This document shows positions 45,128-52,140 of a stretch of 64,000 bases of DNA, one piece after another. Each line of letters starts with the position of its first letter. Within the stretch, counting starts at the first letter, position 1. This stretch comes from an uncultured Paracoccaceae bacterium (GTDB taxonomy: Bacteria; Pseudomonadota; Alphaproteobacteria; Rhodobacterales; Rhodobacteraceae), in NCBI GenBank assembly GCA_947500775.1, contig CANMTD010000004.1, positions 124,001-188,000 on the forward strand. Reading direction: 5' to 3'. The notes beneath the pieces are model-generated. The model was not told the DNA's origin, did no database searches, and worked only from the letters and a program-made list of their open reading frames with translations. Position numbers and translations under genes: made by a program.

Positions 45128-46309
45128 ATGGCCGCACCCCACCTGCCCTTTGACCGATCCGAATATGACGCCCGCCTTGCCAAGACCCGGACCGCAATGA
45201 CGCGCCTCGGGATCGAGGTTCTGTTCATCACCGACCCGTCGAACATGGCCTGGCTGACCGGCTATGACGGCTGGTCGTTCTATGTGCATCAGGGGGTTCT
45301 GCTGGGCCTTGAGGGCGCCCCCGTCTGGTGGGGCCGGGCGATGGACGCCAACGGCGCGCGGCGCACCGTGTTCATGGGGCACGACGATATCGTGGGATAT
45401 GACGACACCTATGTTCAGAACCCCGACAAGCACCCGATGTCCGATCTGGCCCGCCTGATCGCCGCGCGCGGCTGGGACAGCGCGGTGATCGGGGTCGAGC
45501 TGGACAATTACTATTTCTCGGCCGCGGCCTATCTGGCGCTGGTGCGCGCCCTGCCTGACGCCGGGTTGCGCGATACCACCGGCCTGGTCAACTGGCAGCG
45601 CGCGGTGAAATCCCCCCGCGAGATTGACTATATGCGCCGGGCCGCCGCGATTGTCGAAAATATGCACCGGGTGATCCGCGACCGGGCCGAACCGGGGCTG
45701 CGCAAGAACGAGCTGATCGCCGATATCTATCACGCCGGGATCACCGGCGCGGACGGGCATTGGGGCGATTACCCGGCGATTGTGCCGATGGCGCCTTCGG
45801 GCGCGGATGCCACCGCCCCGCATCTGACATGGGACAACAGCCCCCTGCGGGCGGGCGACTGCACATTTTTCGAAATCGCGGGCGCCTATCGCCGCTATCA
45901 CTGCCCGCAGTCGCGCACCCTGTTTCTGGGCACGCCGCCACAGAAATACCGCGACGCCGACAGCGCCGTGCAAGAGGCGACCGCCGCAGCATTGGAACAG
46001 GCCCGCCCCGGCCAGCGGTGCGAAGATGTGGCCCGCGCTTTCAACACCACGCTGAACCGGCTGGGGTTCGAAAAAGACAGCCGCTGCGGGTATTCCATCG
46101 GGTTGTCCTATCCGCCCGACTGGGGCGAACGCACGATGTCGTTCCGGGCGGGCGATGCCACGGTGATGGAACCGGGCATGACGTTCCATTTCATGCCCGC
46201 GCTGTGGCTGGACGACGGCGGGCTGGAAACCACCGAACCGATCCTGATCACCGAAACCGGCGCCGAATGCCTGTGCTCCACCCCCGGCGGGCTGTTTGTA
46301 AAGACCTAG
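45128..46309 (+). CDS. M24 family hydrolase, ectoine hydrolase (DoeA)-like
   Basis: A 393-residue pita-bread fold protein (creatinase N-terminal domain, then M24 C-terminal domain). Segments such as DPSNMAWLTGYDGWSFYVHQ, GDYPAIVPMAPSGADATAPH, FFEIAGAYRRYHCPQSRT and SYPPDWGERTMSF closely follow those I recall from DoeA, which opens the ectoine ring to N-alpha-acetyl-diaminobutyrate. Classical metal-binding Asp/His/Glu residues of aminopeptidase P are partly replaced, as in DoeA. No other ectoine genes are nearby, so the substrate could differ. It is divergent from the ABC-EEP operon. Confidence 0.82.
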   Translation: MAAPHLPFDRSEYDARLAKTRTAMTRLGIEVLFITDPSNMAWLTGYDGWSFYVHQGVLLGLEGAPVWWGRAMDANGARRTVFMGHDDIVGYDDTYVQNPDKHPMSDLARLIAARGWDSAVIGVELDNYYFSAAAYLALVRALPDAGLRDTTGLVNWQRAVKSPREIDYMRRAAAIVENMHRVIRDRAEPGLRKNELIADIYHAGITGADGHWGDYPAIVPMAPSGADATAPHLTWDNSPLRAGDCTFFEIAGAYRRYHCPQSRTLFLGTPPQKYRDADSAVQEATAAALEQARPGQRCEDVARAFNTTLNRLGFEKDSRCGYSIGLSYPPDWGERTMSFRAGDATVMEPGMTFHFMPALWLDDGGLETTEPILITETGAECLCSTPGGLFVKT

Positions 46310-46385
46310 ACGCCCCTTTCCCTTGACTCTGGCCGCCCGGCGCAGTACCCGACGCGCAATATCCGGAAGTGTGTCAACCTTCCGG

Positions 46386-46438
46386 TCCCGGGTGCGACCC
46401 GGGATCGCCCCCCGTCAGCGAGGTTTCGCCCACGGGGG
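46386..46438 (+). terminator. two tandem hairpins after the M24 gene
   Basis: TCCCGGGT (46386-46393) pairs with ACCCGGGA (46397-46404), followed by CCCCCGT (46409-46415) with ACGGGGG (46432-46438). They lie between the M24 gene and ffh, with no T-run. They could terminate or insulate. Confidence 0.45.
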
Positions 46439-46509
46439 ACATTGGCGTTTGGCGGGTCCGTCCCTAGGTTGGGCGGGCATGGTAAGGAACGGTCTTAGGA
46501 GGGCCAGGC

Positions 46510-48018
46510 ATGTTTGAAAATCTATCCGAACGCCTGTCTGGTGTATTCGACCGGCTGACCAAACAGGGCGCCCTGTCCGAAGAAGATGTGAAAACCGCCC
46601 TGCGCGAGGTGCGCGTCGCCCTGTTGGAGGCGGACGTTTCGCTGCCCGTGGCACGTGATTTCGTCAAGGCGGTGCAGGACAAGGCCACCGGGCAGGCGGT
46701 CACCAAATCGGTGACCCCGGGCCAGCAGGTCGTCAAGATCGTGCATGACGCGCTGATCGACACGCTGAGCGGCGAAGGCGATCCCGGCGAATTGAAAATC
46801 GACAACCCGCCCGCGCCCATCCTGATGGTGGGTCTGCAGGGGTCGGGGAAAACCACGACCACGGCAAAACTGGCCAAGCGGCTGAAGGAAAAGAACGGCA
46901 AGCGGGTGCTTATGGCCTCGCTCGACGTGAACCGGCCGGCGGCGATGGAACAGCTTGCGGTTCTGGGCGTGCAGGTCGGGGTTGACACCCTGCCGATCGT
47001 GGCCGGGCAGAAACCGGTCGATATCGCCAAACGCGCCAAGCAACAGGCCACGATGGGCGGCTATGACGTCTATCTGCTGGACACCGCCGGACGTCTGCAC
47101 ATCGACGACGTGCTGATGGACGAGGTGCAGGCCGTGCGCGACGTCGCCAACCCGCGCGAAACGCTGCTGGTGGTGGACGGGCTGACCGGTCAGGACGCGG
47201 TCAACGTCGCCGAACAGTTCGAAGCGCAGGTCGGGATTTCCGGCGTGGTGTTGACGCGGATGGATGGCGACGGGCGCGGCGGCGCGGCCCTGTCGATGCG
47301 CGCGGTCACCGGCAAGCCGATCAAATACGTGGGCCTTGGCGAAAAGCTGGACGCGATCGAGGAATTCCACCCCGAACGGATCGCGGGCCGCATTCTGGGC
47401 ATGGGCGATATCGTATCGCTGGTCGAAAAGGCGCAGGAAACCATCGAGGCCGAACAGGCCGAACGGATGATGCGCCGGTTCCAGAAGGGTCAGTTCAACA
47501 TGAACGACCTGAAAATGCAGCTGGAACAGATGCAGAAGATGGGCGGCATGGAAGGCATCATGGGAATGATGCCGGGCATGGGCAAGATGGCCAAACAGGT
47601 GCAGGACGCCGGGTTCGACGACAGCATCCTGCGCCGTCAGGTCGCCCTGATCCAGTCGATGACCAAAAAGGAACGCGCCAACCCCGCGCTGTTGCAGGCC
47701 AGCCGCAAGAAACGGATCGCCAAGGGCGCCGGGCTTGAGGTCAGCGAGCTGAACAAGCTGCTGAAAATGCACCGGCAGATGTCCGACATGATGAAGAAGA
47801 TGGGCAAAATGGGCAAAGGCGGCATGCTGAAACAGGCCATGAAGGGCATGTTCGGCAAAGGCGGCGGCATGCCTGCGGGCATGGACCCCAGCCAGATGGA
47901 CCCCAAGGCGCTGGAAGCGGCGGCCAAACAGATGGGCGGCAAGCTGCCCGGCGGGTTGCCGGGTCTGGGCGGCGGCGCCCTGCCCCCCGGGCTGTCCGGG
48001 TTCGGAAAGAAAAAGTAA
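46510..48018 (+). CDS. ffh: signal recognition particle protein Ffh (SRP54)
   Basis: A 502-residue SRP GTPase. It has an N-terminal four-helix bundle, a G domain with P-loop GLQGSGKTTTTAKLA near residue 107, DTAGR, TRMDGDGRGG and the GEKLDAIEEF SRP-specific end, then a methionine-rich M domain (GMMPGMGKMAKQ, MTKKERANP and the RKKRIAKGAG RNA-binding region). It binds signal sequences and the 4.5S RNA encoded at 55.3 kb to bring nascent membrane proteins to FtsY. A strong AGGAGG site precedes the ATG. The next gene begins right after the stop. Confidence 0.97.
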   Translation: MFENLSERLSGVFDRLTKQGALSEEDVKTALREVRVALLEADVSLPVARDFVKAVQDKATGQAVTKSVTPGQQVVKIVHDALIDTLSGEGDPGELKIDNPPAPILMVGLQGSGKTTTTAKLAKRLKEKNGKRVLMASLDVNRPAAMEQLAVLGVQVGVDTLPIVAGQKPVDIAKRAKQQATMGGYDVYLLDTAGRLHIDDVLMDEVQAVRDVANPRETLLVVDGLTGQDAVNVAEQFEAQVGISGVVLTRMDGDGRGGAALSMRAVTGKPIKYVGLGEKLDAIEEFHPERIAGRILGMGDIVSLVEKAQETIEAEQAERMMRRFQKGQFNMNDLKMQLEQMQKMGGMEGIMGMMPGMGKMAKQVQDAGFDDSILRRQVALIQSMTKKERANPALLQASRKKRIAKGAGLEVSELNKLLKMHRQMSDMMKKMGKMGKGGMLKQAMKGMFGKGGGMPAGMDPSQMDPKALEAAAKQMGGKLPGGLPGLGGGALPPGLSGFGKKK

Positions 48019-48531
48019 GTGACCACCGCGCCCGTCATAACCACGGCCAACACGCGCCTGCGCCCCCACCGGATCGAGGATATGGAGGCCTTTGAGGCGT
48101 TCTTTAAAAGCCCGCGTGCGGCCCATATGGACGTGCCCGAAAACCGCACGCATCTGTGGTACGGCTTCGCGTCCGAGGTCGGCAGCTGGGCGCTGTGCGG
48201 ATGGGGCGGCTGGGCGGTTGAAACCCATGACGGCGCGCTGGCGGGGCAGGTGGCGATCACCCAGCCCCCGCATTTTCCCGAACTGGAACTGGGCTGGATT
48301 CTGTTCGACGGCTTCGAAGGGCGCGGTCTGGCCTATGAGGCGGCAGGGGCCGCCCGCGACTATTGCTTCGGCACGCTGAAGGCCCCGACGCTGGTCAGCT
48401 ATATCGAGGCCGCGAATACCCGGTCGCGCGCCCTGGCCGAACGGCTGGGCGCAAAGCTGGACCCCGCCGCCGAAACCTATGACGCGGCCGATGTCGTCTA
48501 TCGCCACCAACCGGCGGGGGCTGCGGCATGA
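48019..48531 (+). CDS. GNAT acetyltransferase 1 (RimJ/RimL type)
   Basis: A 170-residue GNAT protein starting at GTG 48019, directly after ffh. It has LRPHRIEDMEAF near the start (after NTRLR), a central GWILFDGFEGRGLAYEAAGA (acetyl-CoA-binding R/Q-x-x-G-x-G/A type loop) and the array-wide signature NTRSRALAERLGAKLD near residue 134. It ends VYRHQPAGAAA. The family transfers acetyl groups to amino groups, often the N-terminus of ribosomal proteins or small molecules. First of five linked genes; it overlaps GNAT 2 by 4 bases. Confidence 0.88.
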   Translation: MTTAPVITTANTRLRPHRIEDMEAFEAFFKSPRAAHMDVPENRTHLWYGFASEVGSWALCGWGGWAVETHDGALAGQVAITQPPHFPELELGWILFDGFEGRGLAYEAAGAARDYCFGTLKAPTLVSYIEAANTRSRALAERLGAKLDPAAETYDAADVVYRHQPAGAAA

Positions 48532-49055
48532 AGATCGAGATCAACATCCCCGAACTGGAAACCGAACGCCTGATCCTGCGCGGCCCGAAACCCGGCGATT
48601 GGCAGGCCGAGGCCGATTTCCGCGCCTCGGACCGCGCCAAATTCGTCGGCGGCACCGAAACCCGTCTGAGAGTCTGGCGCAGGTTTGCCTCTCGCTGGGG
48701 GCATTGGGCCACGCATGGCTATGGCATGTTCACCGTCACGATGCGCGGCTCGGACGAACCGCTGGGCGTGGTCGGACCGCTGTTCCCCGACGGCTGGAGC
48801 GAGCCGGAACTGGGCTGGATTCTGTATGCCGCCGCCGAAGGCAAGGGCATCGCACATGAGGCCGCATCGGCCTGTCGCCGCTATGTCTATGACGATCTGG
48901 GCTGGACCACCGCGATCAGCTATATCAACCCGGAAAACACCCGGTCGCGCGCGCTGGCCGAACGGCTGGGCTGTGTGATCGAGCCCGACGCCAAACATCC
49001 GTTCGACGTGCCCTGTCTGGTCTATCGCCACCCGGCGCCGGAGGCTGCGGCATGA
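48528..49055 (+). CDS. GNAT acetyltransferase 2 (RimJ/RimL type)
   Basis: A 175-residue GNAT protein with ELETERLILRGPK near the start, GYGMFTVTM near residue 67, GWILYAAAEGKGIAHEAASA (acetyl-CoA loop) and NTRSRALAERLGCVIE near 141. A 30-base stretch (48942-48971) differs at one position from the matching stretch in GNAT 1 (48421-48450), strong evidence of duplication. Its start overlaps the GNAT 1 stop; the conserved Gly/Ala-rich end of GNAT 1 supplies the ribosome-binding site. Confidence 0.88.
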   Translation: MKIEINIPELETERLILRGPKPGDWQAEADFRASDRAKFVGGTETRLRVWRRFASRWGHWATHGYGMFTVTMRGSDEPLGVVGPLFPDGWSEPELGWILYAAAEGKGIAHEAASACRRYVYDDLGWTTAISYINPENTRSRALAERLGCVIEPDAKHPFDVPCLVYRHPAPEAAA

Positions 49056-49570
49056 TCCCGGTACTGGAAACCCAACGCCTGCGGCTGGTGGCCCCGGCGG
49101 ACCGGCACCTGCCCGCCGAGCGCGCATTCTGGGCCAGCGACCGGTCGCATTTTGTCGGCGGTCCGGTGCCCGCGCATCGCGCCTGGCGGATCATCGCGCT
49201 GCACCTGGGGCATTGGGATATGCTGGGATACGGCATGTTCGCGGTTGAACTGAAAGACAGCGGCCAACCGGTCGGCATGGTCGGCCTGTGGGGGCCGGAA
49301 CCCTGGCCCGAGGCGGAGCTTTCCTATCAGCTGTACGACGGGTTCGAAGGCAACGGCTATGTCACCGAAGCCGCCCGCGCGGTGATGGACTGGAATTTCG
49401 GCCCGCTGGGGCGGGACCGTCTGGTCAGCATGATCGACCCCGCCAATGCGGCCAGTCAGGCCGTGGCCACCCGGCTGGGCGGCTATAACACCGGCGATAC
49501 CTTCGCCCCGGACCGGGACGAGAAAAAGGTCGATATCTGGCGGTACGATCTGCCGGAGGTCCGCGCATGA
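49052..49570 (+). CDS. GNAT acetyltransferase 3 (RimJ/RimL type)
   Basis: A 172-residue GNAT protein beginning MIPVLETQRLRLVAPADRHL. The core FVGGPVPAHRAWRIIALHL, GHWDMLGYGMFAVEL and the acetyl-CoA loop YDGFEGNGYVTEAARAV are visible, and the C-terminal signature is more divergent (NAASQAVATRLGGYNT). A GGAGG site lies within the end of GNAT 2. Sequence divergence from GNAT 1 and 2 suggests a different substrate. Confidence 0.88.
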   Translation: MIPVLETQRLRLVAPADRHLPAERAFWASDRSHFVGGPVPAHRAWRIIALHLGHWDMLGYGMFAVELKDSGQPVGMVGLWGPEPWPEAELSYQLYDGFEGNGYVTEAARAVMDWNFGPLGRDRLVSMIDPANAASQAVATRLGGYNTGDTFAPDRDEKKVDIWRYDLPEVRA

Positions 49571-50085
49571 TCCCCGTGATTGAAACCGAACGCCTGACCC
49601 TGCGCGCGCCCGCGGCCCGCGATCTGGACGCCTATACCGCCTATTACACCGGCCCGCGCACCGCCTTTGTCGGCGGCGCGGTGGATACGGCAAAGGCCTT
49701 CAACCAGTTTGGCAGCATGATCGGCCATTGGCATCTGCGCGGCTTTGGCCGGTTCGTGTTCTGCGACAAGACCGATGACACGCCGATGGGCCACGCGGGC
49801 CCGATGCAGATAGACCTGTCCGTGCCGCCCGAACTGACATGGACAATCTGGGACGCCCGGTATGAGCGCCAAGGCTATGCGACCGAGGCCGCCCGCGCCA
49901 CGCGCCAGTTCCTGTTCGACGCCACCGACCACCGCAGCGCGATTGCCCGGGTCATGCCCGACAACACAGGATCGCGCGCCATCGCCGAAAAGCTGGGCGG
50001 GCGGCTGGATACCACCGCCGAAGCGCCCGCATGGCTGCCCGGTTCGGTGACCTATATGTTCCACAAAGACGAGGTTGCGGCATGA
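49567..50085 (+). CDS. GNAT acetyltransferase 4 (RimJ/RimL type)
   Basis: A 172-residue GNAT protein, MIPVIETERLTLRAPAARDL start, FVGGAVDTAKAFNQFGSMI, GHWHLRGFGRFVF, then DARYERQGYATEAARATRQF (acetyl-CoA loop) and NTGSRAIAEKLGGRLD. It overlaps GNAT 3 and GNAT 5 by 4 bases each. Among the array it is closest to GNAT 3 in its opening residues. Confidence 0.88.
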   Translation: MIPVIETERLTLRAPAARDLDAYTAYYTGPRTAFVGGAVDTAKAFNQFGSMIGHWHLRGFGRFVFCDKTDDTPMGHAGPMQIDLSVPPELTWTIWDARYERQGYATEAARATRQFLFDATDHRSAIARVMPDNTGSRAIAEKLGGRLDTTAEAPAWLPGSVTYMFHKDEVAA

Positions 50086-50675
50086 TCCCCGTATTGGAAA
50101 CCCAACGTCTGGTCCTGCGCGGCCCCGAGGCCGAGGATTACCCCGATTTCAAGGCCACCTTCAGCAGCTATCGGTCGCGTTTCATGGGCGGGCCGCTGAA
50201 CAAATACGAGGCGTGGATGCTCTATGCCGCCGAGATCGGCCATTGGCATATCCGCGGCTTTGGCATGTGGATGATCCACGACAAGGACACCGATGAAACG
50301 CTGGGCATGGCCGGTGGCTGGCAGCCCGCAGGCTGGCCCGAACGCGAAATCGCCTGGATCATCTGGCCCGACAAGGCCGGTCACGGCTATGCCTTGGAGG
50401 CGACCAACGCCGCGCGGCGCCATTTCTATACGCAGATGGGATGGGACAGTGCGGTCAGCTATATCGACCCCAAGAACCTTGACAGTATCCGGCTGGCCGA
50501 ACGTCTGGGCGCGGTGAAGGACAAGGACGCCGCCACCATCGACGGCAGCGATGCGGTCTATCGCCACCCGACCCCCGCGCAGCTGCGCTCCAGCCAGATC
50601 GCCGACGGCATCGCGCTGGAAATCAGCCACTACTGCGACCCGTTGTTCAAACCGAAAGGCTGGGCCATTGACTGA
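50082..50675 (+). CDS. GNAT acetyltransferase 5 (RimJ/RimL type), C-terminally extended
   Basis: A 197-residue GNAT protein beginning MIPVLETQRLVLRGPEAEDY, with KYEAWMLYAAEIGHWHIRGF, the loop WPDKAGHGYALEATNAARRH and NLDSIRLAERLGAVKD. It runs about 25 residues longer than the others, adding ADGIALEISHYCDPLFKPKG. The chorismate mutase start codon lies 8 bases inside its end. The ATG at 50082 matches the array starts; an upstream ATG at 50031 is inside GNAT 4. Confidence 0.88.
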   Translation: MIPVLETQRLVLRGPEAEDYPDFKATFSSYRSRFMGGPLNKYEAWMLYAAEIGHWHIRGFGMWMIHDKDTDETLGMAGGWQPAGWPEREIAWIIWPDKAGHGYALEATNAARRHFYTQMGWDSAVSYIDPKNLDSIRLAERLGAVKDKDAATIDGSDAVYRHPTPAQLRSSQIADGIALEISHYCDPLFKPKGWAID

Positions 50676-50964
50676 CGCCGTTACCCGCGCCGCGCAGGTG
50701 CTGAAAGAGCATCGCGAAAGCATCGACCGGCTGGATTCCATTCTGGTCTATACGCTGGCCGAACGGTTCAAGCACACCCAGGCTGTGGGGGTGCTGAAGG
50801 CCGAACACGCCCTGCCCCCGTCGGACCCCGACCGCGAGGCCAAACAGATTGCCCGACTTGAGGATCTGGCGCAGCGCGCCGATCTGGATCCCGAGTTTGC
50901 CAAGAAATTCCTGAAGTTCGTGATTCAGGAAGTCATCCAACACCACGAAAAACACCAATCATAA
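50668..50964 (+). CDS. aroQ: chorismate mutase type II (AroQ)
   Basis: A 98-residue all-helical AroQ-class mutase converting chorismate to prephenate: RESIDRLDSILVYTLAERFK near residues 16-35 (catalytic Arg and Lys), VGVLKAEHALPP near 40 (active-site Lys) and DPEFAKKFLKFVIQEVIQHH near the end. I start it at TTG 50668, 8 bases inside GNAT 5, because the conserved helix begins there and no ATG or GTG fits. A separate chorismate mutase suits the monofunctional pheA in this window. It precedes rpsP. Confidence 0.87.
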   Translation: MTDAVTRAAQVLKEHRESIDRLDSILVYTLAERFKHTQAVGVLKAEHALPPSDPDREAKQIARLEDLAQRADLDPEFAKKFLKFVIQEVIQHHEKHQS

Positions 50965-51009
50965 GGCGGGGGCTTCCCCGCTACCCCGCCATTCAAAGGA
51001 GAATAACAA

Positions 51010-51411
51010 ATGGCTATCAAACTTCGTCTCGCCCGTGGCGGCTCTAAAAAGCGCCCCTTCTATCGCATCGTTGTGGCCGACAGCCGCATGCCGCGCGACG
51101 GCCGTTACATCGAAAAAATCGGCACCTATAACCCGCTGCTGCCCAAAGACAGCGAAGAGCGCGTTAAAATGGACATGGAGCGCGTAACATACTGGTTGGG
51201 TGAAGGCGCACAGCCCACCGACCGGATTTCCCGCATGCTGGAAGCTGCTGGCGTTCTGGAAAAGAAAGAGCGCAACAACCCCAACCGCGCGAAACCCGGC
51301 AAGAAAGCCGTCGAGCGTGCGGAAGAACGCGCCGCCAAGGCCGCTGAAGCAGCCGAAGCTGCCGCAGCACCCGCCGAAGAGGCCCCCGCTGAAGAAGCTG
51401 CTGCCGAATAA
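51010..51411 (+). CDS. rpsP: 30S ribosomal protein S16 (bS16)
   Basis: A 133-residue bS16. The core ([40 protein letters not shown], residues 1-80) is standard; an Ala/Glu-rich tail (about 85-133) is longer than in E. coli (82 residues) but common in alphaproteobacteria. An AAAGGAG site precedes the ATG. It is followed by a 10-base GC hairpin and the small membrane peptide gene. Confidence 0.97.
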
Positions 51412-51419
51412 GACCTTTG

Positions 51420-51444
51420 CCCCGGCCCGCACCCCGGGCCGGGG
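51420..51444 (+). promoter_or_regulatory. GC-rich hairpin between rpsP and the small ORF
   Basis: CCCCGGCCCG (51420-51429) pairs perfectly with CGGGCCGGGG (51435-51444) around a 5-base loop. Without a T-run it is more likely an attenuator or processing/stability element that lowers downstream gene expression relative to rpsP. Confidence 0.55.
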
Positions 51445-51468
51445 ATCACCCCTGCGAGGTAACCGCGC

Positions 51469-51612
51469 ATGTTCCGCCTGATCCGCACGGCCATTCTGTT
51501 GCTGATCACCTTTGTCGCGGGCATGTTGTTTGAGCGCAATCACCAGCAGGAGCTATGCGCCCTGTCCGGCGGAGAATGGATGCGCGCGGGATTATGTGCG
51601 GCGAAAGGATAG
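51469..51612 (+). CDS. small membrane protein of 47 residues, function unknown
   Basis: Starts MFRLIRTAILLLITFVAGML: an N-terminal transmembrane helix, then a soluble tail with two cysteines (Cys30, Cys43) in QELCALSGGEW and GLCAAKG. It could be exported with a disulfide, or anchored. GAGG lies upstream; the gene sits between rpsP and rimM with 3 bases before rimM, so it belongs to the operon. I recognise no family. It is a good candidate for an unannotated small protein. Confidence 0.6.
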   Translation: MFRLIRTAILLLITFVAGMLFERNHQQELCALSGGEWMRAGLCAAKG

Positions 51613-51615
51613 CCG

Positions 51616-52140
51616 ATGACAGATCGCATTTGCGTTGGGGCCATTGCCGGCTCTTTCGGGGTCCGGGGCGAGGTGCGGCTGAAAAGCTTTTGCGCCGATC
51701 CGCAGGCGATTGGCGACTATGCCCCGCTGTATTCCGAAGATGGCGCGCAGAAATATGACGTGACGCTGACCCGCGTCATCAAGAACGGCTTTGCCGCCCG
51801 CCTGTCAGGCGTCACCAGCAAGGAACAGGCCGACGATCTGAAAGGCACGCAGCTGTTTGCCGACCGTGACCAGCTGCCCGTATTGCCGGACGACGAATAT
51901 TACCACAGCGATCTGATCGGGCTGGAGGTGCTGGACACCGGCGGCACATCGCTGGGCGTGGTGCGTGCGGTGCACAACCACGGCGCCACCGATCTGTTGG
52001 AAATCCACGGCCCCGGCCTAAGCGCGACCGTGCTGTTGCCCTTTACCAGCGCGGCGGTGCCGACGGTGGATACAGGCGCGGGCCGGATCATCGCCGACCC
52101 GCCCGAGGGGCTGTTCCCGGATAGCGGCGATGACGCTTAA
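51616..52140 (+). CDS. rimM: 16S rRNA processing protein RimM
   Basis: A 174-residue RimM with an N-terminal RimM beta-barrel ([20 protein letters not shown]) and a C-terminal PRC-barrel ([13 protein letters not shown] near residue 95, [11 protein letters not shown]-like region, and [11 protein letters not shown]). It helps mature the 3' domain of 16S rRNA by binding uS19 in the 30S head. It overlaps trmD by 11 bases. Confidence 0.95.

Follow-up and report, generated by a model that had tools for sequence, protein, structure and literature searches.

A 64,000-nucleotide stretch of DNA from an uncultured Paracoccaceae bacterium (GenBank assembly GCA_947500775.1, contig CANMTD010000004.1, positions 124,001 to 188,000; the whole stretch is referred to here as the window) carries five tandem genes for GNAT-family acetyltransferases, designated GNAT1 through to GNAT5, between ffh and a chorismate mutase gene. 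Comparison with related loci makes it very probable that these genes belong to an operon-embedded, hypervariable slot of exchangeable GNATs, in which GNAT5, as a representative of a lineage designated lineage A, is the fixed member where present. The window would thus display one state of this slot, which may hold zero to 12 members of a single GNAT subfamily, joined to a block of signal recognition particle (SRP) and ribosomal protein genes via stop-start overlaps. Taken as a whole, a slot of exchangeable GNATs that supplies a detoxifying repertoire is considered somewhat probable as the best explanation.

The GNAT array of the window

The following features, all on the plus strand, make up the array and its borders.

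46510..48018, plus strand: ffh (signal recognition particle protein; open reading frame, ORF), upstream edge of the slot
48019..48531, plus strand: GNAT1, 170 residues, GTG start abutting the ffh stop (PF13302, 86.4 bits)
48418..48450, plus strand: 33-base stretch encoding the Asn/Ser motif, repeated at 48939-48971 with one mismatch
48528..49055, plus strand: GNAT2, 175 residues (PF13302, 95.9 bits)
49052..49570, plus strand: GNAT3, 172 residues (PF13302, 94.1 bits)
49567..50085, plus strand: GNAT4, 172 residues (PF13302, 84.2 bits)
50082..50675, plus strand: GNAT5, 197 residues, array-terminal lineage A (PF13302, 94.1 bits)
48528-48531, 49052-49055, 49567-49570 and 50082-50085, plus strand: ATGA overlaps GNAT1/2, 2/3, 3/4 and 4/5 (from the sequence)
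50668..50964, plus strand: chorismate mutase, downstream edge of the slot (PF01817, 71 bits; NF006691, 148.5 bits; TTG start read from the sequence)
51010..51411, plus strand: rpsP (ORF), first gene of the rpsP-rimM-trmD-rplS block

An original prediction, made from the sequence of the window, had described five overlapping GNAT genes of 170-197 residues with four ATGA joints, the first abutting ffh, and these coordinates proved exact; in a profile search, all five products matched PF13302 (Acetyltransf_3) at 84-96 bits, against a curated cut-off of 25.4. The array also ends as had been described, with the putative TTG start of the chorismate mutase gene at 50668 overlapping GNAT5 by eight bases, followed by rpsP-rimM-trmD-rplS, an order that is the same in relatives whose fetched locus extends that far. 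The motif blocks said to be common to the copies are present in most of them, with the exception of GNAT1, which has TTANTRL in place of ETxRL and GSW in place of GHW, while the end motif is altered in GNAT3 (SQAVATRLG), GNAT4 (SRAIAEKLG) and GNAT5 (SIRLAERLG). Base composition gave no signal of foreign origin, the G+C content of GNAT1-5 being 0.63-0.68 versus 0.59-0.68 for ffh, chorismate mutase, rpsP, rimM and trmD.

Occupancy of the slot in related genomes

Relatives were fetched with Ffh, rather than with the GNATs, as the query, and empty slots were therefore visible. The sample comprised 80 named loci, the best 80 of 555 confirmed, which are near relatives (76-90% Ffh identity in the best segment) and include many metagenome bins; together with the window, 81 loci were compared. 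GNAT domains were counted at an E-value of 1e-5, with fusions of two domains counted as two. In total, 188 domains were identified, all encoded on the same strand as ffh, in the interval that separates it from chorismate mutase; three of these are fragments (L045_1, L071_3 and L100_7), leaving 185 full-length members for analysis. No GNAT domain was present in 11 loci, one in 13, two in 24, three in 22, four in five and five in three, while six, eight and 12 domains were each observed in a single locus. The largest arrays were those of Actibacterium sp. 188UL27-1 (12 domains) and Pseudooceanicola nanhaiensis (L069; eight domains), and the window, with five GNATs, is among the top six of the 81 loci. 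The comparison of copy number across the Rhodobacteraceae that had been suggested with the original prediction thus shows that five copies are not a constant feature.

Certain arrays possess unusual arrangements. The Actibacterium slot (L100:10524-17346) includes a gap of approximately 840 bases after the eighth of its 12 domains, one of which is a fragment. In three loci from Aliiruegeria and Tropicimonas (L085, L095 and L098), two adjacent array members are fused in frame into a protein of approximately 365 residues, and the L085 fusion protein contains two PF13302 stretches.

Strong members of the subfamily were found to be largely confined to this slot. A search with a profile of the five GNATs covered 41 genomes, 25 from the family of the window (its own genome included) and 16 from other families of the class. 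Hits were tallied by eye, and the bit cut-offs were chosen once the hit lists were visible. A slot member was present in 21 of the 25 same-family genomes, with ffh or chorismate mutase adjoining each best hit (L001-L021), and 60 of the 61 hits of at least 110 bits in these 25 genomes lie beside one of these two genes, the exception being G004:C509. Among 13 further genomes reached via the named loci, 30 of 31 hits of at least 120 bits were located in the slot (30 of 33 at 110 bits or more); the strong exception, G058:C25, derives from the same genome as locus L104 and resembles the Agrobacterium protein 2fsr by eye. Five of seven genomes with an empty slot lack any member at an E-value of 1e-20, and the other two each possess one weak match (78 and 90 bits). 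In the nine genomes examined of the 16 from other families (L134-L142), rpsP follows ffh with no GNAT in between (nine of nine); in one of these, chorismate mutase is located between ffh and rpsP.

The surroundings of relatives located outside the slot, as judged from selected ORFs, had no common theme across genomes G025, G027, G028 and G058. The G027 relative (other family; L119:6935-7477) is located between the malate dehydrogenase (mdh) and succinyl-CoA synthetase genes, on the same strand and approximately 20 kb from ffh. That of G028 (L118) is found near genes for CAAX-protease-like and tetratricopeptide repeat (TPR) proteins and one ORF without a match, and that of G025 (L117) near two ORFs without a match. 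The 2fsr-like G058 relative (L143:8192-8695) is located near genes for an AraC-type regulator, an aldehyde dehydrogenase, a copper amine oxidase and others, a neighbourhood that could hint at an amine substrate for the L143 lineage.

Old and separate lineages rather than a local expansion

The phylogenetic relationship of the GNATs was assessed using a tree of 211 proteins (quick search, LG+G4 model), with branch support from the Shimodaira-Hasegawa-like approximate likelihood ratio test (SH-aLRT) only and no bootstrap. A firm clade of 31 rows (SH-aLRT 100), here designated lineage A, includes GNAT5. Thirty members of lineage A come from the window and the named loci, and 29 of them occupy the final position of their array; the exception is L100, where the lineage A gene is the eleventh of twelve. 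Lineage A proteins carry a C-terminal tail of approximately 35 residues with conserved positions (GNAT5 residues 163-197; window positions 50568-50672) and have a median length of 201 residues, compared with 175 for the other array members. Across 322 pairs of loci sharing lineage A and a non-A match, median identity was 0.75 for lineage A versus 0.50 for the best other member, with lineage A being higher in 311 pairs. Lineage A is, in other words, the slower-changing, array-terminal member where present.

The remaining copies present a different picture. The nearest relative of GNAT1 is the second copy in a Cognatishimia array (L083; 59%) and that of GNAT2 is the first copy of Rhodovulum kholense (L060; 67%), while GNAT3 is divergent (best relative 49%) and GNAT4 is the most divergent of the five (41%). 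The five GNATs of the window are old, separate lineages, with GNAT1-4 belonging to a patchy remainder. Among the 185 full-length members, only four are closest to another member of the array to which they belong, all in L100 (copies 2/3 and 4/5), although for the 13 of the 185 that constitute single-copy arrays this is impossible; median identity between members of one array was 0.38 (241 pairs). In genome G022, which is outside this count, three array genes group together (SH-aLRT 91).

The original prediction had viewed the five genes as a local family expansion. In a rival explanation of this kind, GNAT1-5 would have arisen by recent tandem duplication in this lineage and been kept for dosage. 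The uniform ATGA joints would suit such an origin, as would the DNA match between GNAT1 and GNAT2, which had been noted as a 30-base stretch and is real, extending to 33 bases; when synonymous codons of the same proteins were resampled, a match of this length was attained in one of 200 simulations, and codon choice alone explains it poorly. However, the stretch encodes the conserved Asn/Ser motif of the family, and GNAT2 has runs of at least 30 bases in common with six of 183 array genes from other species (GNAT1 with none of the 183), and the match is therefore only weak evidence of duplication or gene conversion between GNAT1 and GNAT2. Since every copy is nearest to a copy from another species, with own-array nearest neighbours for just four of the 185 genes, and pairwise identity among GNAT1-5 is 34-44% (BLASTP), recent tandem duplication was rejected, in agreement with the tree; the expansion scenario is largely refuted and is considered highly improbable.

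Turnover of array content between close relatives

Array content was compared between seven Ruegeria-like pairs with an Ffh identity of at least 0.990, and was found to differ in five pairs and to be the same in two; the contents in the differing pairs were E, M-D and F-E-B-D, with letters denoting types of array gene. TrmD identity in the seven pairs is 0.89-0.96, and they therefore represent distinct species. Similarly, the slot is empty in three Rhodovulum species and holds C-A or I-C-A in four others. The proposal that retention of five coupled copies reflects coordinated use is contradicted by these differing Ruegeria contents and empty Rhodovulum slots, together with the range of zero to 12 domains.

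BLASTN comparison of five locus pairs revealed that the DNA match ends within three bases of the ffh stop codon in all five; in three of them, it resumes no more than four bases from either a junction between GNAT genes or the point where the last GNAT ends. For L104/L107, the match begins again three bases upstream of the ATG of the shared last gene, and for L104/L079 and L079/L107 at the end of the last GNAT. Two of the five pairs have gene E in common at 72%. The variable positions of the array thus hold a patchy set of ancient, divergent lineages, the make-up of which is not the same in near relatives, and homology ends at gene borders or close to them. At the same time, gene order recurs, as A is last, B is first or alone in 15 of 22 cases and E precedes D, which points to an old array with a set order, in whose history losses would be one component. 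The sequences fit change of content by interspecies transfer as well as by loss from a richer ancestral array.

Several observations weigh against a slot of discrete, confined and exchangeable members, in addition to the by-eye tallies and retrospective cut-offs mentioned above. Weaker relatives of the subfamily are located outside the slot in several genomes, as are two strong ones (G004:C509 and G058:C25); in the tree, six out-of-slot relatives group in a starred clade apart from the array genes, and L112 (G004:C509) and L117 (from another family) are placed among the array genes. Not all homology breaks coincide with gene borders, as the match resumes 27 bases into the last gene in L104/L110 and 22 bases short of the last gene's end in L075/L063, and L104/L107 has an additional 76-base match spanning an inner junction. 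Deep relations in the GNAT tree are uncertain, with 62 of 208 inner branches starred and 81 open. Finally, the 185 full-length members fall into 64 clusters (lineage A and 63 others) at an average identity of 0.55, a number that varies with the chosen cut.

Coupling of the array genes and their probable co-transcription with ffh

Among 118 internal array junctions, 72 were shown to be ATGA overlaps and 18 more to have a one-base overlap, counts that lean upward since start codons were set by a rule favouring overlaps. A Shine-Dalgarno-like tetramer was present upstream of 66 of the 72 ATGA junctions, compared with 180 of 1560 internal ATGs, which supports translational coupling of the array genes as predicted from their sequences. 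The idea of a local expansion held in register with translation genes thus stands with regard to a coupled tandem family, and is not supported with regard to the expansion. No promoter-like site was found within 46300-51700, where the scan represents a weak test in an alphaproteobacterium; with the same limit, six terminator-like sites were found, all on the minus strand (mean of 4.9 in shuffled sequences). The array is probably co-transcribed with ffh and rpsP, around which gene order is widely conserved in bacteria.

Active site, predicted structure and selection

Conserved residues of the putative active site were examined across the 185 full-length members. In GNAT5 numbering, Glu89 was retained in 182, Asn132 in 176 and Ser135 in 173, with all three present in each of the five copies of the window, and at least one of the three changed in 20 members. 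In the alignment, these residues correspond to Glu102, Asn145 and Ser148 of PA3944 from Pseudomonas aeruginosa. In the published account of PA3944 (PMC8072286), the enzyme requires Ser148 to act on polymyxin B and an analogue, with Asn145 proposed to contribute to the oxyanion hole and Glu102 suggested to help bind the substrate. The acetyl-CoA loop, the retention of which had been suggested as a check on the original prediction, is retained by most array members and is present in all five copies of the window, with the P-loop Ala replaced by Val in GNAT3 and one G replaced by R in GNAT4. GNAT4 lacks the first Glu of the family PE.E motif, one loop Gly and the C-terminal RH, and retains Glu, Asn and Ser. 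Each array protein would accordingly be predicted to be an active acetyl-CoA-dependent acetyltransferase acting via the conserved Ser.

AlphaFold2 models of the two copies modelled, GNAT4 and GNAT5, were confident, with a mean predicted local distance difference test score (pLDDT) of 97.0 and 94.7, respectively, and matched solved GNAT structures. The fold search, conducted against the PDB only, returned 2fsr as the best match of both models, with PA3944 among the next neighbours (joined by the Bordetella GNAT 3juw in the case of GNAT5) and RimL and RimJ ranking lower.

The suggested examination of selection for each copy type yielded a median ratio of nonsynonymous to synonymous substitution rates (dN/dS) of 0.19 for lineage A (274 usable pairs of 277) and 0.14 for the other members (103 of 122), indicative of purifying selection on close orthologues at the sequence level. 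These medians derive from non-independent, reciprocal-best pairs, many with high dS, and from a restriction to pairs with a domain identity of at least 0.72, which favours slow-changing pairs and excludes the fastest-changing members. Segment entropy was highest for residues 144-166 (2.54) and helix 17-27 (2.50), and lowest for the Asn/Ser segment (1.58), the N-terminal segment (1.64) and beta-4 (1.68), a pattern that fits changed acceptor specificity only loosely.

These data bear on the possibility that only GNAT5 matters, with GNAT1-4 being near-neutral passengers that duplicate and decay within the operon. Patchy presence, empty slots, three fragments among 188 domains and the 20 members with an altered Glu, Asn or Ser would be expected of passengers, yet the low median dN/dS of close non-A orthologues, the retention of all three residues in GNAT1-4 and the confident GNAT model of GNAT4, the most divergent copy, argue against decay, and this explanation is regarded as quite improbable.

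Possible functions of the variable members

As a functional extension of the slot reading, we tentatively suggest, by analogy and as a guess that is held to be less than even in probability, that the substrates acetylated by the variable members are toxic small molecules or peptides carrying an amine, and not fixed proteins of the cell. The array would represent a growth-linked repertoire with different acceptors, in which GNAT5 may have one conserved acceptor, and possible targets of the variable members would include antibiotics, microcin-like translation inhibitors and polyamine-like amines. Detoxification is favoured because array content turns over fast while the chemistry is retained, and because the characterized fold neighbours include enzymes with polymyxin, bleomycin, microcin C or lasso peptides as substrates. 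Precedents are PA3944, which acetylates polymyxins (PMC8072286), and MccE and RimL, which act on microcin C (PMC4964394, PMC5539429).

The original prediction had instead assigned the genes to the RimJ/RimL type, with a link to ribosomal or membrane-protein biogenesis. In this alternative, the GNATs would be N-terminal acetyltransferases of nascent or ribosomal proteins that differ in N-terminal preference and together form a co-translational modification set. Such a role would be in keeping with the tight coupling of the array inside the SRP/ribosomal protein block and with the broad fold shared with RimL and RimJ (1s7l and 3igr were among the structure matches). However, none of the five GNATs matched the NCBIfam RimJ/RimL models (NF008072 and NF007539) at an E-value of 0.01, while a RimJ-like gene at another place in the genome matches these models, though not strongly enough to pass (103 bits to NF008072, which requires 190), and RimJ/RimL structures rank under 2fsr and PA3944. 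Core targets would also predict a stable set, yet close Ruegeria relatives differ and five of the seven genomes examined with an empty slot lack any member at an E-value of 1e-20. Beyond operon position, no pointer to ribosomal or membrane proteins was found, and this role is considered unlikely.

The detoxification proposal has evidence against it as well. Purifying selection and a fixed lineage A are also compatible with housekeeping, and a translation-linked function would be in line with the operon context. Acetyltransferases of polyamines, sugars and proteins are likewise among the fold neighbours. None of the five GNATs matched the PADLOC anti-phage defence models at an E-value of 0.01, their matches to NCBIfam drug acetyltransferases are far under the cut-off, and there is no direct link of the window GNATs to a toxin or antibiotic. 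A bolder version, in which the slot would be a dedicated site for interspecies exchange of acetyltransferase cassettes, wired to the SRP/ribosome operon such that a changing shield against amine-bearing translation inhibitors would be produced along with protein synthesis, and with GNAT5 as a fixed anchor, is deemed unlikely.

If the variable members differ in their acceptors, the slot would offer a natural library for the evolution of GNAT acceptor specificity; if they inactivate toxic amines, it would serve chemical defence in a large bacterial family, as a locus of which the literature searched gave no description. The results also call for caution in naming such genes RimJ/RimL from Pfam alone.

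Comparison with known systems

The closest solved structure is that of 2fsr, an Agrobacterium tumefaciens GNAT whose entry title gives no function. It is the best sequence match (169 bits, E 6e-49) and the best fold match of the GNAT4 and GNAT5 models, with a template modelling (TM) score of 0.90-0.91 on the target and an alignment covering the whole domain, including the end motif VYR, but is only 33-34% identical to these models. In contrast to the arrays, the fetched relatives from other families (L117-L119) and the 2fsr-like G058 copy (L143) are single genes in other surroundings. PA3944, a Ser-dependent polymyxin acetyltransferase, resembles the array proteins as one of the next fold neighbours after 2fsr and in its aligned active-site Glu, Asn and Ser, but differs in its low sequence match (71 bits; 22-24% identity to the GNAT4 and GNAT5 models), and array positions aligned with F43 and F44, which contact the ligand, vary. 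RimJ and RimL, which are ribosomal-protein N-alpha-acetyltransferases, have the same Pfam domain type and fold as the window GNATs, but are set apart by the lack of an NCBIfam model match for any of the five and by their lower structural rank.

No description of an ffh-adjacent GNAT array was found in the open-access literature searched, subscription journals being mostly outside its coverage. A GNAT family that reaches a dozen genes or none inside a conserved block, with strong members rare elsewhere, is unusual. Variable gene islands and cassette arrays at conserved loci are a known general kind of system, which the slot resembles in its fixed flanks, variable content and breaks at or near gene borders, but from which it differs in that the GNAT cargo found here belongs to one enzyme subfamily inside a block of translation genes.

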